Assembly (NCBI GenBank): GCA_014360645.1 | Contig: JACIXD010000004.1 | Span: 186,001 to 250,000, forward strand | Length of the DNA: 64,000 nucleotides | Reading direction: 5' to 3' | Source of the DNA: Actinomycetota bacterium | GTDB taxonomy: Bacteria; Actinomycetota; Geothermincolia; Geothermincolales; RBG-13-55-18 | Part shown: positions 42,816-51,532 of the stretch, one piece after another | Position numbering within the stretch: position 1 is the stretch's first letter | Layout: each line of letters starts with the position of its first letter | Position numbers and translations under genes: made by a program | Notes under the pieces: generated by a model | Seen by the model: only the letters and a program-made list of their open reading frames with translations | Told to the model about the DNA's origin: nothing | Databases searched by the model: none

Positions 42816-43484
42816 CTAACCCCTCTCCGCCTCCTCCGCCAGCTCCAGGGCTTTTCTCTCCAGCTCTTCGCTGTACTCCTCCCACCGGGACCTCTCGCCT
42901 CCGGGAGCGCGCCAGAGCACGAAGCGGCAGGTGTCCGCGCCGGCGGGGATGGTCTGGGTGAAGCGCACCTGCCAGCCCTCGAGCATTCCCTTTTCCCTCA
43001 CCGCCTCCAGCATGCCCTGCACGAAGTAGCGCTGCACGCGGCAGTCGAAGGCGGAATATACGTCCTGGTGGGGGCACCAAAGGATGTGGAAGCTCACTTC
43101 GTCCTCGGAATCGATGCTCGGCTCCTCCAGCGAGGCGTAGGCGATGCAGTTAACCACGGTGGCGAAGAAGCTGGCCATCTCCGCCTCGCTCAGTCCCTCC
43201 GGAGGCTCCAGCTCTCCCATCATCTGACGGCCGACCTCCCTTCCCACCTCCACCAGGGCCTCCCTGACCACCCGCTGGCCCTCCTCCCCGAACTCGCGTT
43301 CGCAAGCCTTGAGGACCTCGATCACCGCCCTGGCCTGCATGGTTCCCCATACCCATAACACAGCGGGGTCGAAGTCGGTCTTTTCCAGCACCTCCTCGCG
43401 CAGTCTCCTCAATCCCTCCGCGTAGGGGAATTCGAAGGTGAACCTCTCCCAGGATTCCTCCTCACGATGATGGTAATGCGCCAT
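42816..43484 (-). CDS. Possible L-2-amino-thiazoline-4-carboxylic acid hydrolase-like protein
   Basis: 222 residues, soluble, acidic. The overall pattern (helical N-terminus with MQARAVIEVLKACEREFGEEG, a Cys-containing FHILWCPHQDVY near residue 137, and a C-terminal TIPAGADTCRFVLWR near 190) resembles the ATC hydrolase/V4R-like group seen in anaerobes, where the final beta segment ends with a cysteine in xGxxxCxF. I am not certain of the family. The ATG at 43484 is used, with GGAGGGGATTTTCC upstream; the frame extends to 43517 without support. No operon partner is evident. Confidence 0.6.
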   Translation of the reverse strand: MAHYHHREEESWERFTFEFPYAEGLRRLREEVLEKTDFDPAVLWVWGTMQARAVIEVLKACEREFGEEGQRVVREALVEVGREVGRQMMGELEPPEGLSEAEMASFFATVVNCIAYASLEEPSIDSEDEVSFHILWCPHQDVYSAFDCRVQRYFVQGMLEAVREKGMLEGWQVRFTQTIPAGADTCRFVLWRAPGGERSRWEEYSEELERKALELAEEAERG

Positions 43485-43625
43485 GGAAAATCCCCTCCCA
43501 GACTCGCTCCTCGCCAAGAGCCTTCGCCGTAAATCTACCAGTTATCGGCCCGCGCGGCAAAGCCTCCGCCCGGCAGGGCTTCTCCTTTCCCGGTCATTCT
43601 CCTCAAGGGCAGAGATGGATTAAAC

Positions 43626-43812: not shown

Positions 43813-44838
43813 CTAGAAGAAGAGCTGGGCGAGCTCGTAGAGCTCGAGGTCCACCTGCTTGGTGCCGGCCAGCGCCTCGGAGTAGGGCACCGCTTTCACC
43901 CGGTTGGCGCACATGCAGGCCATGTGGTCGAAGATCCCCTCCTCCACCATCTGCACCGCGTAGGCCCCCAGCCGGGTTGCGAGCACGCGGTCGAAGACGG
44001 TGGGGGTTCCCCCCCGCTGCAGGTGCCCCAGGTGGGTCACCCTGGTCTCGTAGCCGGTGGCACGCTCTATCTCCTCCGCGAGCCAGTTACCGATACCGCC
44101 CAGGCGCACATGGCCGAAGGGGTCCTTCTTCTGGTCCAGGACGAACTGTTCCTCCACCCCTTCCGGCCGCGCGCCCTCCGAGACCACGATGATAGAGAAG
44201 TGCTTGTTCATCCTGCGGCGCTTCTCGATGCGCTCCACCACGTCGTCGAGGGCGAAGGGCACCTCAGGGATGAGGATGCTGTCCGCTCCCCCGGCGATAC
44301 CGGAGATGAGGGCGATCCAGCCCGCGTCCCTGCCCATGACCTCCAGGATCATGATGCGGTGGTGCGAAAAGGCGGTGGTGTGGAGCTTGTCCAAGGCATC
44401 GGTGGCCACCGCCACCGCGGTGTCGAAGCCGATGGAATAATCTGTTCCCGGCAGGTCATTGTCGATGGTCTGGGGGATTCCCACGCACTTCACGCCGTGT
44501 TCCGCCAGGCGGTGAGCGACGCCGTTGGTGTCCTCGCCGCCGATGGCTATCACCGCGTCTATGCCGTGTTTGCGCAGGTTCACCATGATGTTCTCGAGGC
44601 CGTTCTCTATCTTGAAGGGATTGGTGCGGGAGGTGCCCAGGATGGTACCTCCGCGCTGGATGATCCCCGAGACGGAGCCCATGAAGAGCGGTTCCACCTC
44701 GTCGTAGACGAGTCCCCTCCAGCCGCGCTTTATACCTATCACCTCGTGGCCGTCGGCTATGGCCTTGCGCACAACCGCACGGATGGCGGCGTTGATGGCG
44801 GAACTGTCCCCGCCTCCCGTAAGCAACGCGATCCTCAC
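43813..44838 (-). CDS. pfkA: 6-phosphofructokinase (phosphoryl donor uncertain)
   Basis: 341 residues, group A PFK. It phosphorylates fructose 6-phosphate. Catalytic PQTIDNDLPGTD near 122, MGRDAGWIA near 172, RPEGVEEQF near 215 and THLGHLQRGG near 290 are all present. The nucleotide site is unusual: the N-terminal loop reads GGGDSSAIN where GGDxPGxN is normal, GGED near 100 has the aspartate found in PPi-dependent enzymes, but the next key position is Q (PQTIDND) instead of G (ATP type) or K (PPi type). The GTG at 44838 follows AAAAAGGAGGAATGACGGA. The aldolase gene lies 361 bases upstream on the same strand. Confidence 0.92.
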   Translation of the reverse strand: MRIALLTGGGDSSAINAAIRAVVRKAIADGHEVIGIKRGWRGLVYDEVEPLFMGSVSGIIQRGGTILGTSRTNPFKIENGLENIMVNLRKHGIDAVIAIGGEDTNGVAHRLAEHGVKCVGIPQTIDNDLPGTDYSIGFDTAVAVATDALDKLHTTAFSHHRIMILEVMGRDAGWIALISGIAGGADSILIPEVPFALDDVVERIEKRRRMNKHFSIIVVSEGARPEGVEEQFVLDQKKDPFGHVRLGGIGNWLAEEIERATGYETRVTHLGHLQRGGTPTVFDRVLATRLGAYAVQMVEEGIFDHMACMCANRVKAVPYSEALAGTKQVDLELYELAQLFF

Positions 44839-45199
44839 TCCGTCATTCCTCCTTTTTCTTCCCCGTCCGTATTTATATGCCCGCGCGGCGGGCTTGATCG
44901 CCACGTCACCCCATGACCGTCTCCGCCGGGCGTCTTTCGCCTTTTCCCCTCACCTCCTCGGAGCTCACACGTTGCCGCGTGGGACTCCTTGCCCGTCTTT
45001 TCTTACGACTCCGCTGCAACGACTCGGCATTCTGTCCCCGCTTCCGCGGCCCCTATCGGCGCGCCTCTCCGCCACCTCCCCAAGCGTGCGGCTCTCCCGC
45101 TTGCCAACCCGGTCGCGCTCTTCTTGCTTCAGGGGGTTGAGGGTCTTTCGGACTTGCTTTCCGGCGCGGATTTATGTCCCATGTCCGGGGCTGACCCCA
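44839..45199. other. Intergenic region between aldolase and PFK genes
   Basis: 361 bases with no gene of plausible composition. The part next to the aldolase stop (45175-45199) is a copy of the TGTCCCATGTCCGGGGCTGA repeat end also found at 19985-20008; read on the minus strand it forms a GGGG-TCAG-CCCC hairpin just after the stop. The promoter of pfkA on the minus strand should lie here but is not recognisable. Confidence 0.5.
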
Positions 45200-46054
45200 T
45201 CAAGCGCGGCCGGCGCAGCCGAAGAGCCGCATCTTGCGCGCCACCACCTCCCGCATGGCCTCCCGTGCCGGGGCGAGGATCTTGCGTGGGTCGATCTGCT
45301 CGGGGTTCTCGTTGACGAACCTGGCCACCGCCTGCCGGAAGGCGTCCCGCACCTCGGTGTCGATGTTTATCTTGTCCACGCCGATGGCACACGCCTCCCT
45401 GATCATCTCGTCGGGGATGCCGCTCGCCCCGTGCAGAACCAGGGGGATGGAGACCCGGGCGCGGATGGCGCGCAGGCGTTCGAAATCCAGCTTCGGCTCG
45501 CCCTTGTACCATCCATGGGCATTGCCGATGGAGACCGCCAGGGAGTCGATCCCCGTCCTCTCCACGAACTCCGCCGCCTGGTCGGGATCGGTCATGGAGG
45601 CCTCCCTCTCGGAAACGGATATCTGGTCCTCCACCCCCACCAGGCGCCCCAGTTCCGCCTCGGTGGAGGCGCCCGCAGCGCGCGCCATCTCCACCGCCTG
45701 GCGAGTGAGGGCGACGTTCTCCTCGAAGGAGAGCTTGCTGCCGTCGATCATCACCGAGGAAAAACCGTGGTCGAGCGCCGCCTTGACCTCCTCCAGGCTG
45801 GTCCCGTGGTCCAGGTGGAGGGACATGGGCACGTCGGCGGACTCCGAGGCCACGCGGGCGATGGCCGCCAGGTAGGCCACGCCGGCGTACTTCATGGCCC
45901 CCGGGGACACGGCGAGGATGAGGGGCGAACGCTCCTCCACCGCCGCCTCCACGATGGAGAGGGTGATCTCCAGGTTGTTGGTGTTGAAGGCCCCTACGGC
46001 GTAACCTCCGGCCATGGCCCGGTCAAGCAGCTCCGCGTTGGTCACGAAAGCCAT
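45200..46054 (-). CDS. fba: Class II fructose-bisphosphate aldolase
   Basis: 284 residues. Zinc-dependent class II aldolase/tagatose-bisphosphate aldolase family, cleaving fructose 1,6-bisphosphate to triose phosphates. The zinc and catalytic motifs are intact: LHLDHGTS near 80, SVMIDGSKLS near 102, EAELGRLVG near 133, SIGNAHGWYKG near 180, LVLHGASGIPD near 212 and KINIDTEVR near 235. The second ATG of a pair (46054) is preferred to 46060 for spacing from GGAGGAGGGG. It and the PFK gene are consecutive on the minus strand, so two successive glycolytic steps are encoded together. The stop codon is inside the start of a dispersed repeat. Confidence 0.92.
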   Translation of the reverse strand: MAFVTNAELLDRAMAGGYAVGAFNTNNLEITLSIVEAAVEERSPLILAVSPGAMKYAGVAYLAAIARVASESADVPMSLHLDHGTSLEEVKAALDHGFSSVMIDGSKLSFEENVALTRQAVEMARAAGASTEAELGRLVGVEDQISVSEREASMTDPDQAAEFVERTGIDSLAVSIGNAHGWYKGEPKLDFERLRAIRARVSIPLVLHGASGIPDEMIREACAIGVDKINIDTEVRDAFRQAVARFVNENPEQIDPRKILAPAREAMREVVARKMRLFGCAGRA

Positions 46055-46601
46055 GCGCATCCCCTCCTCCGGGTGACGTATTGCCTGCCATCACGCAAGT
46101 AAAACGGACGGTTCCCGTCTCTGCTCCGCTCCATATCCATCTTCTTCCATCCCTTTTCGCACCCGCCGGAAGGCCATCGGGCCGCACCTCGCGGGACGCC
46201 GGCACGATCCCGCGCCCCATATCCGGGTCCGCGGATCAGGGTAAGACTCCCCGCCCGCACCCCAGGTTCCCGGCGCGACGGCCGGACCACTCCCGCGCCG
46301 CCTTTTTACCGCTGCCCGTGCTCCCCCGCCGAAGCCCGCCCGTGCCCTAATACATACGTTCTCAGGCCCGCGGTTCAGCTCCTGCGTGCGCCGACCCCGC
46401 AGTATAGCAGCCGTGCCCCGAAAAGGTTACTCGCGAGAAGACGTTTTCGCGGCACGACCACATCCAGCCACCACTCTTTATATTTTTCCCTTCGGACCTG
46501 GATTCATGCCCACGCCGCGGATGAAAGGCACCCCGCCGCGCGTCCGGTCGACGGGACAAGCACACGGGCGCCTTTTCGCCGCGAGGTCCTCGCCGGGTCA
46601 C
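46055..46601. other. Intergenic region upstream of aldolase
   Basis: 547 bases with no gene. It should hold the aldolase promoter on the minus strand. The translations of open frames here are low-complexity. It ends where the 88-bp tandem repeat begins. Confidence 0.4.
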
Positions 46602-46880
46602 GAAAACGGGGCCGCGCTGTTCCTCATCCGCCCGGGGGCGGAAGGTGTCACCGTATTCCATGAGGGGTCTCTCTTTTCGAAAGCTCTTTGAAAACGGGGC
46701 CGCGCTGTTCCTCATCCGCCCGGGGGCGGAAGGTGTCACCGTATTCCATGAGGGGTCTCTCTTTTCGAAAGCTCTTTGAAAACGGGGCCGCGCTGTTCCT
46801 CATCCGCCCGGGGGCGGAAGGTGTCACCGTATTCCATGAGGGGTCTCTCTTTTCGAAAGCTCTTCGAAAACGGGGCCGTC
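46602..46880. repeat. 88-bp tandem repeat, three full copies plus a partial fourth
   Basis: GAAAACGGGGCCG starts copies at 46602, 46690, 46778 and 46866 with an exact 88-base period; the first three are nearly identical, the fourth is cut after about 13 bases where the crotonase gene ends. Each unit contains CCGCCCGGGGGCGG and TCTCTTTTCGAAAG palindromic parts. As 88 is not a multiple of three and the units lie after a stop codon, this is not coding. Confidence 0.95.
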
Positions 46881-47690
46881 CTATTCTTCCTCCGCCGGAG
46901 GGGTCGTCTCGCGCGCGCCGAGTCCTCGCTCCCAGCGCCGCAGTATCCCGCGCACGGCGGCGCGGTGCTCTTCCGACAACAGCATCACCGGCTGCACGCT
47001 GCATTCGAGTCCCAGCACCGTGCGCAGCTCCAGCAGGCGGGAGCGGTTGAGCATGCGCTTGGTGGTGGAGATGGTCTCCGGAGACCTCCCGGCGATCTCC
47101 CGCGCCAGGTCCATGACCTCCCGCGAGATCCTCTCGTGCTCCACCACCCGGTTCACCATCCCCATCTCCAGGGCCTCCGCAGCGCCCACCATCCTCCCGG
47201 TGAAGGCCATCTCCTTTGCCCTGGCGATGCCCACCCTCTCGGCGAGGAAGAACGACGACCCCATATCCGGCGCGGCGGCGATGCGTACGAAGCCCATGCA
47301 GAAGAGCGCCCTTTCCGTGGCATAGGTGATGTCGGAGGCGAGGGCCAACCCCAGGCCTCCCCCCACCGCGAAGCCGTCCACCTCCGTGATCACCGGCTTG
47401 GGACCCTCGTAGAGCCGGAGGATGACCTCAGCGAGGAGGGTCATGCTCTGGTTGAGAAAGACGGGGTCGAGGTTCTCCCCCAGCAGGCTGAGGTCGGCTC
47501 CGGAACAGAAGTGGCCCCCCTCGCCCCGCAGCACGATCACCCGCACCGACTCGTCCTCCAGTACGCGCGTGAGGCCCTCCACCATGGGATAACCGAGCTT
47601 GAGGCTGAGGGCGTTCATGTCCTCGGGGCTGTTCATGCTGCAGCAGGCTACGCCGTCCTCGAGCTCCACCTTGAAGATCTCGCCTTCCAT
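46881..47690 (-). CDS. Enoyl-CoA hydratase/isomerase family protein
   Basis: 269 residues, crotonase fold. The oxyanion-hole segment GHFCSGADLSLLG near residue 65 and the second one (VDGFAVGGGLGLALASDITYA near 105) are present. The position usually held by the second catalytic glutamate reads AAPDMGSSFFLAERVG, so an aspartate or no acid acts there, which is common in isomerases and hydrolases of the family. The substrate acyl-CoA is unknown. ATG at 47690 follows GAGGACAGGGGC; the longer frame to 47789 is unsupported. The C-terminus is rich in charged residues (ETTPPAEEE). An 88-bp repeat array follows its stop. Confidence 0.88.
   Translation of the reverse strand: MEGEIFKVELEDGVACCSMNSPEDMNALSLKLGYPMVEGLTRVLEDESVRVIVLRGEGGHFCSGADLSLLGENLDPVFLNQSMTLLAEVILRLYEGPKPVITEVDGFAVGGGLGLALASDITYATERALFCMGFVRIAAAPDMGSSFFLAERVGIARAKEMAFTGRMVGAAEALEMGMVNRVVEHERISREVMDLAREIAGRSPETISTTKRMLNRSRLLELRTVLGLECSVQPVMLLSEEHRAAVRGILRRWERGLGARETTPPAEEE

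Positions 47691-51455: not shown

Positions 51456-51532
<77 letters not shown>

Follow-up and report, generated by a model that had tools for sequence, protein, structure and literature searches.

The stretch of DNA analyzed here (the window; 64,000 nucleotides) encodes a 6-phosphofructokinase of the PFK-A superfamily, referred to below as the window PFK. On the same strand, a gene for a class II fructose-bisphosphate aldolase lies upstream, with 361 bases between it and the PFK start. Table 1 lists the two genes together with the motifs of the PFK that bear on its phosphate donor. The initial annotation of this gene had its coordinates right and gave no strand; it runs on the minus strand, from 44838 down to 43813. 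The plus-strand reading of 43813–44838 is likewise an open frame, and we rejected the idea of a chance ORF on the opposite strand, as the minus-strand product is a full PFK. An Rfam search around the PFK gene returned no RNA at the gathering threshold (across the window, Rfam matches nothing but a tRNA, at 51458–51531). Two other features were seen nearby: a tandem array at 46602–46896 (88-base unit, 3.4 copies, 97% matches) lying between the aldolase gene and an enoyl-CoA hydratase gene, and, downstream of the PFK gene at 42816–43517 on the minus strand, a match to PF14196 (L-2-amino-thiazoline-4-carboxylic acid hydrolase; 35.2 bits, cut-off 28.1).

Table 1. Genes and motifs of the PFK locus (positions in the window)
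Feature	Position	Strand	Basis
Group III (mixed-substrate) PFK-A, 341 aa, predicted to be PPi-dependent; GTG at 44838, stop at 43813	43813..44838	minus	translation and profiles
AGGAGG, probably the ribosome-binding site for the PFK gene	44848..44853	minus	sequence reading, 9 bases 5' of the GTG
N-terminal phosphate-binding loop in its altered form: codons of residues 9-16 (own numbering), G-G-D-S-S-A-I-N	44791..44814	minus	translation
Donor switch of the PPi type: codons of residues 100-103 (own numbering), G-G-E-D, with Asp at E. coli position 104	44530..44541	minus	translation, alignment, DNA pattern match
Motif with Gln at E. coli position 124 and the catalytic Asp at 127: codons of residues 122-128 (own numbering), P-Q-T-I-D-N-D	44455..44475	minus	translation, alignment, DNA pattern match
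Class II fructose-bisphosphate aldolase (286 aa), which follows PFK in the pathway	45200..46060	minus	PF01116, 356.7 bits

The window PFK belongs to the PFK-A superfamily by PF00365 (376 bits, cut-off 30.9) and to the mixed-substrate group III by TIGR02483, PFK_mixed (442.5 bits, curated cut-off 430.55). It also scores well above the cut-off of the NCBIfam model NF002872, which is named "ATP-dependent 6-phosphofructokinase" (409.3 vs 253 bits). Its AlphaFold2 model, computed with an alignment of 38 sequences, has a mean pLDDT of 90.5 and a pTM of 0.88, and the best match of the model in the PDB is 3pfk (Z 42.3, rmsd 1.4, 316 aligned residues). The top-ranked fold matches are ATP enzymes; fold similarity has no power to decide the donor of this PFK.

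Residue numbers from here on are those of the E. coli pfkA crystal structure, in which the initiator Met is 0 (the window PFK's own numbering is one lower). When aligned with E. coli pfkA, the window PFK is identical at G11, D12, R72, T125, D127, D129, R162, M169, G170, R171, E222, R243, H249 and R252, has Lys in place of R77, and differs at the donor end, where it carries S13, S14, A15, I16, E103, D104, V108 and Q124. GGGDSSAIN, IGGEDTNG and GIPQTIDND are found in the minus-strand translation exactly as the initial annotation described them, and the alignment agrees that Gln at 124 is neither the Gly of ATP enzymes nor the Lys of PPi enzymes. Judging by their place in the sequence, positions 13, 16 and 172 (the last is taken up below) probably belong to the active site. 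At the ten positions of the allosteric effector site (R21, R25, R54, Y55, D59, R154, E187, K211, K213 and K214), the window PFK keeps three (R21, R25 and K213) and has M, G, G, H, D, M and H at the rest; it thus does not look like an allosteric bacterial PFK, which suggests that the classical allosteric site has been lost.

The donor rules used here come from three publications (PMC11609450, PMC12203962 and PMC5931981). The signature of PPi enzymes given in 2024 uses the first motif only, GG(D/E)D(S/T)xxx (PMC11609450), and GGEDTNGV of the window PFK agrees with it. Every solved ATP enzyme has Gly at 108, and PPi enzymes invariably have a larger residue there (PMC12203962); the window PFK has Val. 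According to the same 2025 review, Asp104 occupies the place of the ATP alpha-phosphate, and any residue bigger than Gly at 108 acts against adenine. In an Entamoeba PPi-PFK, changing the Asp to Gly was reported to improve the Km for ATP 18-fold (PMC5931981). With D104 and V108, the sequence GGEDTNGV fits neither the pattern of ATP-dependent PFK-A, GGDGSxxG (Gly104 with Gly108), nor that of ADP-dependent PFK-A, GGDGSxxI. The second motif has Gln where PKTIDXD has Lys. Lys124 is described as the second PPi signature, and since this Lys touches the phosphate site in BbuPFK, where it contacts sulfate or product (PMC12203962), its loss is a real departure and counts as evidence against PPi. The Lys in place of R77 and the existence of a Gln124 relative with Ala104 (L061) count against PPi too, as does the lack of uniformity of the Gln124 set described below. 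The residue in P(G/K)TIDXD is, according to the review, no a priori indicator of the donor, as the T. brucei PFK is ATP-dependent yet has Lys there (PMC12203962).

The initial annotation let positions 104 and 124 decide the donor together and called the choice genuinely unclear. Asp104 does point to PPi as it held; position 124 does not rank as an equal determinant, and the verdict itself was too strong, because GGEDTNGV fits the PPi signature and Val108 is a third determinant that it had not used. From the residues at hand, we consider the window PFK to be quite probably a functional PPi-dependent phosphofructokinase, and we would describe it as a variant functioning in the manner of a PPi-PFK rather than as a plain member of that class. 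Searches of the open-access literature turned up no publication about a Gln124 PFK and no Gln124 enzyme of measured donor (the characterized minimal PPi-PFKs of Thermoproteus tenax and Dictyoglomus thermophilum lie outside the comparison at residue 124), so no close homologue there contradicts the initial claim; the donor can nonetheless be predicted from the residues.

Among characterized enzymes, the short group III PPi-PFK-As of Amycolatopsis methanolica and Thermoproteus tenax are like the window PFK in size, TIGR02483 family, D104, T105 and catalytic residues, whereas the window PFK differs by Gln124 for Lys (with T. tenax and D. thermophilum outside the comparison at this residue) and by S13/S14/A15/I16 for C/A-P-G-L. 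The A. methanolica enzyme presumably has Lys at 124. PDB entry 9cir, titled as the PPi-dependent PFK of Ca. Prometheoarchaeum syntrophicum, has D104, T105, G107, V108 and MGRDAGW in common with the window PFK (GGDDTCGVA and MGRDAGW vs GGEDTNGVA and MGRDAGW), the two being 39% identical across the 324 residues aligned in the fold search of the model (Z 39.0). This Asgard enzyme differs in being longer (424 aa) and in having PKTIDND (Lys124) and a GGDCPGLN loop; no paper combining Prometheoarchaeum, phosphofructokinase and pyrophosphate was found in the open-access literature. PFKs of other Actinomycetota with Lys124/Asp104 or Lys124/Gly104 are members of the same family (identity to the window PFK of 57%, 60% and 56% for L014, L135 and L162), and these three carry PKTIDND and GGD(C/A)PGLN, unlike the window PFK. 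The cyanobacterial ADP-dependent PFK-A shares fold and family with the window PFK and has Gly104 and Ile108 (PMC11609450) where the latter has D104 and V108; its GGDGSxxI motif is resembled by two paralogs in the genome, not by the window gene.

The two paralogs were recovered by searching the genome with the window protein, a search that found no ATP-type PFK-A. Both have GGDG, PKTIDND (Lys124) and GGDCPGLN. One (L002; G000:C9:24597-25604) reads GGDGSMRI and the other (L003; G000:C10:20094-21107) reads GGDGTLSI, near the Gly104/Ile108 pattern GGDGSxxI given for ADP-dependent PFK-A (PMC11609450), with Thr for Ser in L003. If this reading is right, the organism would pair one PPi-type PFK with two ADP-type PFKs.

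We searched 39 genomes, 31 of them of the same class, for orthologs of the window PFK. Stretches of identical DNA tie G003, of the same family, to Ca. Solincola sediminis and G016, of the same order, to Ca. Geothermincola primus; this puts the window in Ca. Geothermincolia, an uncultured lineage of Actinomycetota. Full-length orthologs were found in 10 of the 31 genomes of the class (ten proteins including the query, 74–100% identity; fragments in G002, G005 and G013 were left out of the motif count), and the gene is therefore present in part of its class and not universal there. All ten have Gln124, GGDSSAIN, GG(D/E)D and PQTIDND, which rules out an oddity private to this gene. In two relatives (G016 and G018, each 99% complete) the Gln124-type PFK is the sole match to the window protein, so this type should be active. 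This finding, together with an intact frame, the retention of the catalytic residues and strong conservation across phyla, makes it exceedingly improbable that the gene is a degenerate or inactive copy, as the changes in a near-invariant loop and in the donor residues might otherwise suggest.

In a wider collection, 84 of 141 non-identical PFK homologues have Gln124, a fraction biased by the use of IPQTIDND as one of six seeds in a scan of genome contigs (80 loci taken of 138 that passed). The loci from the seeded scan include Aquicultoria, Humimicrobiia, Bipolaricaulota, Fidelibacterota, Omnitrophota and Stahliibacteriota, along with single records labelled Atribacterota and Thermotogota (labels of draft genomes that may be wrong); Gln124 recurs in the first three of these and in others. 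In the set of the 141 homologues and E. coli, residue 104 is Asp in 82, Glu in one, Ala in one and Gly in none of the 84 Gln124 proteins, vs Asp in 15 and Gly in 31 of the 46 Lys124 proteins. The rare Gln124 PFKs lacking Asp104, i.e. L061 (2041-3063; Ala104), L050 (6001-7014; Glu104) and G244:C54:868-954 (Glu104), are natural test cases for the donor rule.

We also surveyed 396 genomes of the phylum, the Gln seed being absent here, using a DNA pattern that leaves 104 free to be G, D or E and accepts various residues at 124. This wide pattern had a match in 182 of the genomes, and the 150 matches listed include, counted by eye, 29 with Gln124, 118 with Lys124 (49 D104, 69 G104) and three with Gly124 (all G104). 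When the pattern was narrowed to Gln124, the complete list held 29 matches in 29 of the 396 genomes (28 D104, one E104, no G104), of which 10 are in the class of the window genome and 19 in one other family (f11). For the matches listed, Gln124 and Lys124 proteins differ in having an acidic residue at 104 with a Fisher p of 8e-10, kinship ignored. Gln124 thus does not mix freely with the ATP-type Gly104, and within the phylum it is confined to two groups.

The GDSSAIN loop occurs in 20 of the 141 homologues, every one of them with Gln124. To compare the two kinds of protein position by position, we used 60 Gln124 and 43 Lys124 non-redundant proteins and kept positions where one or two residues account for at least 93% of the Gln124 rows and at most 25% of the Lys124 rows. 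Five positions passed (13, 16, 124, 172 and 300). Position 13 is Ser or Thr in the Gln124 set (58/58 rows having the loop, vs 1/43 Lys124 rows) and Cys, Ala or Val in the Lys124 set; position 16 is Ile or Thr vs Leu; and position 172 is Asp in 54 of the 60 Gln124 proteins, with His in 20 of the 43 Lys124 proteins and a mixture in the remainder. Asp172 by itself has no diagnostic value, because the Asgard PPi-PFK combines it with Lys124. Ala15 is found in 30 of the 58 Gln124 rows and in none of the 43 Lys124 rows. Within the Gln124 set, GGDSSAIN is one form in a series (SPGIN, SPAIN, SPATN, SSAIN) and so is no isolated oddity. The set is not uniform, as Tyr replaces the sugar-site His249 in 42 of the 45 Gln124 PFKs of the GGDSPGIN kind (e.g. 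the Bipolaricaulota-type L065, L066 and L072). With respect to the initial annotation, the replacement of GGDxPGxN by GGDSSAIN is borne out and the residues it singled out are real, but the mixture is not peculiar to this gene: loop and Gln124 are features of a lineage, present in all ten orthologs and, for Gln124, in 84 of the 141 homologues.

Trees were built with the trait columns (11-17, 103-108 and 124) excluded throughout. Rows with fewer than 300 filled columns were dropped, as were rows more than 90% (quick tree) or 80% (careful trees) identical to a kept row, and ten (76-row tree) or eleven (75-row tree and AU tests) long-branched or distant rows. In the quick tree (113 rows), the 60 Gln124 rows form a single group (SH-aLRT 90, not starred). 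The careful tree of 76 rows takes three changes and contains one very long row (L122_1, branch 4.48); in the 75-row tree without it, Gln124 is a grade enclosing the main Lys124 group (90/86), with two changes, and just 6% of the bootstrap trees have a single change. The AU test does not reject a single clade of Gln124 (p 0.50) or of Lys124 (p 0.44), but a single Asp104 clade is rejected (p 0.0014). Changes at residue 124 number 4 in the quick tree and 3 in the 75-row tree, vs 7 and 6 at residue 104. What can safely be said is that changes have been rare at residue 124 and more common at residue 104, where the switches between Gly and Asp fall among Lys124 proteins.

Gln124 might be the older state, since in one tree it forms the grade giving rise to most Lys124 group III enzymes. 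We mention as a tentative and rather unlikely idea that Gln124 stands for an old and distinct way of handling PPi that does without the phosphate-binding Lys; Ser/Thr13, Gln124 and usually Asp172 would then form a co-evolved site that commits the enzyme to PPi or a different Mg-phosphate donor, e.g. polyphosphate, and Lys124 would be the permissive state for donor switching. The mobility of residue 104 on the tree, and the rejection of a single D104 origin, can also be read as a sign that group III has switched donors repeatedly and that the window PFK is ATP-dependent despite its Asp104. We regard this as very unlikely: Gly104 is found in none of the 84 Gln124 proteins and none of the 29 survey matches, Val108 is likewise unfavourable to adenine, and two Gly104 paralogs are already in the genome.

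Of the seeded-scan loci, 70 extend 1.1 kb or more upstream of the Gln124 PFK (10 more were excluded as their upstream sequence is too short), and 46 of these 70 have an aldolase match within 500 bp upstream: 32/33 in Bipolaricaulota, 10/30 in Actinomycetota, 1/1 in Atribacterota, 1/1 in the Thermotogota-labelled record, 2/4 unassigned and 0/1 in Fidelibacterota. This arrangement fits a glycolytic role. It also bears on whether the window PFK is a paralog with another main acceptor, e.g. sedoheptulose 7-phosphate, and with fructose 6-phosphate (F6P) as a secondary one, as three PFK-A genes in one genome could suggest. That seems highly improbable, because the F6P-contact residues are those of E. 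coli, the window-type PFK is the only match in some relatives, and the aldolase lies upstream in so many loci (though sedoheptulose bisphosphate might be a second substrate for a class II aldolase, which weakens the argument from the neighbour).

Genes of PPi physiology do not discriminate between donors. A membrane H+-pyrophosphatase is encoded in the genome (and in 36 of the 39 genomes), as is PPDK (33/39 over the cut-off; at E <= 0.001 all 39 genomes plus all 14 controls match), and both occur with or without this PFK; we therefore discarded PPi physiology as proof of the donor. Our search for fructose bisphosphatases (FBPases) covered the GlpX and class V types. GlpX-type FBPase was found in none of the 31 genomes of the class (4/39 in total), and the class V FBPase/aldolase (PF01950) is present in the window genome, in 29 of the 31 genomes of the class and in 32 of the 39 in total, so that no gluconeogenic need for a reversible PFK follows.

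The residues with their conservation, the fold prediction and the pairing with aldolase are observations; for the donor, kinetics, reversibility and role of Gln124 we infer the following scheme. The window PFK would be a short (about 40 kDa) group III enzyme catalyzing PPi + fructose 6-phosphate <-> Pi + fructose 1,6-bisphosphate, with a glycolytic role beside the aldolase encoded upstream. Asp104 would take the place of the ATP alpha-phosphate, putting PPi in the beta/gamma register, and Val108 would narrow the adenine cleft. Asp127 would act as the base, and the substrates would be served, as in E. coli, by Arg72, Arg162, Met169-Arg171, Glu222, Arg243, His249 and Arg252. Gln124, where other PPi enzymes place a Lys touching the phosphate, probably offers a neutral hydrogen bond, together with Ser13 and the loop at the helix start, and would thus represent a change in the manner of PPi binding. 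A neutral Gln124 and a changed loop could also relax the choice of donor, giving an enzyme for which short polyphosphate (or nucleotides) would serve besides PPi, at useful rates. The loss of both the PPi-holding Lys and the usual PGxN loop speaks for such breadth, and the T. maritima PPi-PFK reportedly accepts polyphosphate; we nevertheless think it unlikely, as nearly all Gln124 relatives keep Asp104 together with a residue bigger than Gly at 108, a pair that should still exclude nucleotides.

With PPi as the predicted donor, the window PFK looks like a natural variant shared by a whole family, not a mystery, and its donor appears predictable. The donor choice of PFKs is often read from two residues, and a widespread Gln124 lineage that has Asp104 without Lys124 separates their roles and so offers an easy way to learn which of the two governs the donor and which the rate. 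It would also help in annotating glycolytic donors across several uncultured phyla: NF002872, which the window PFK matches, says ATP in its name although the residues point to PPi.
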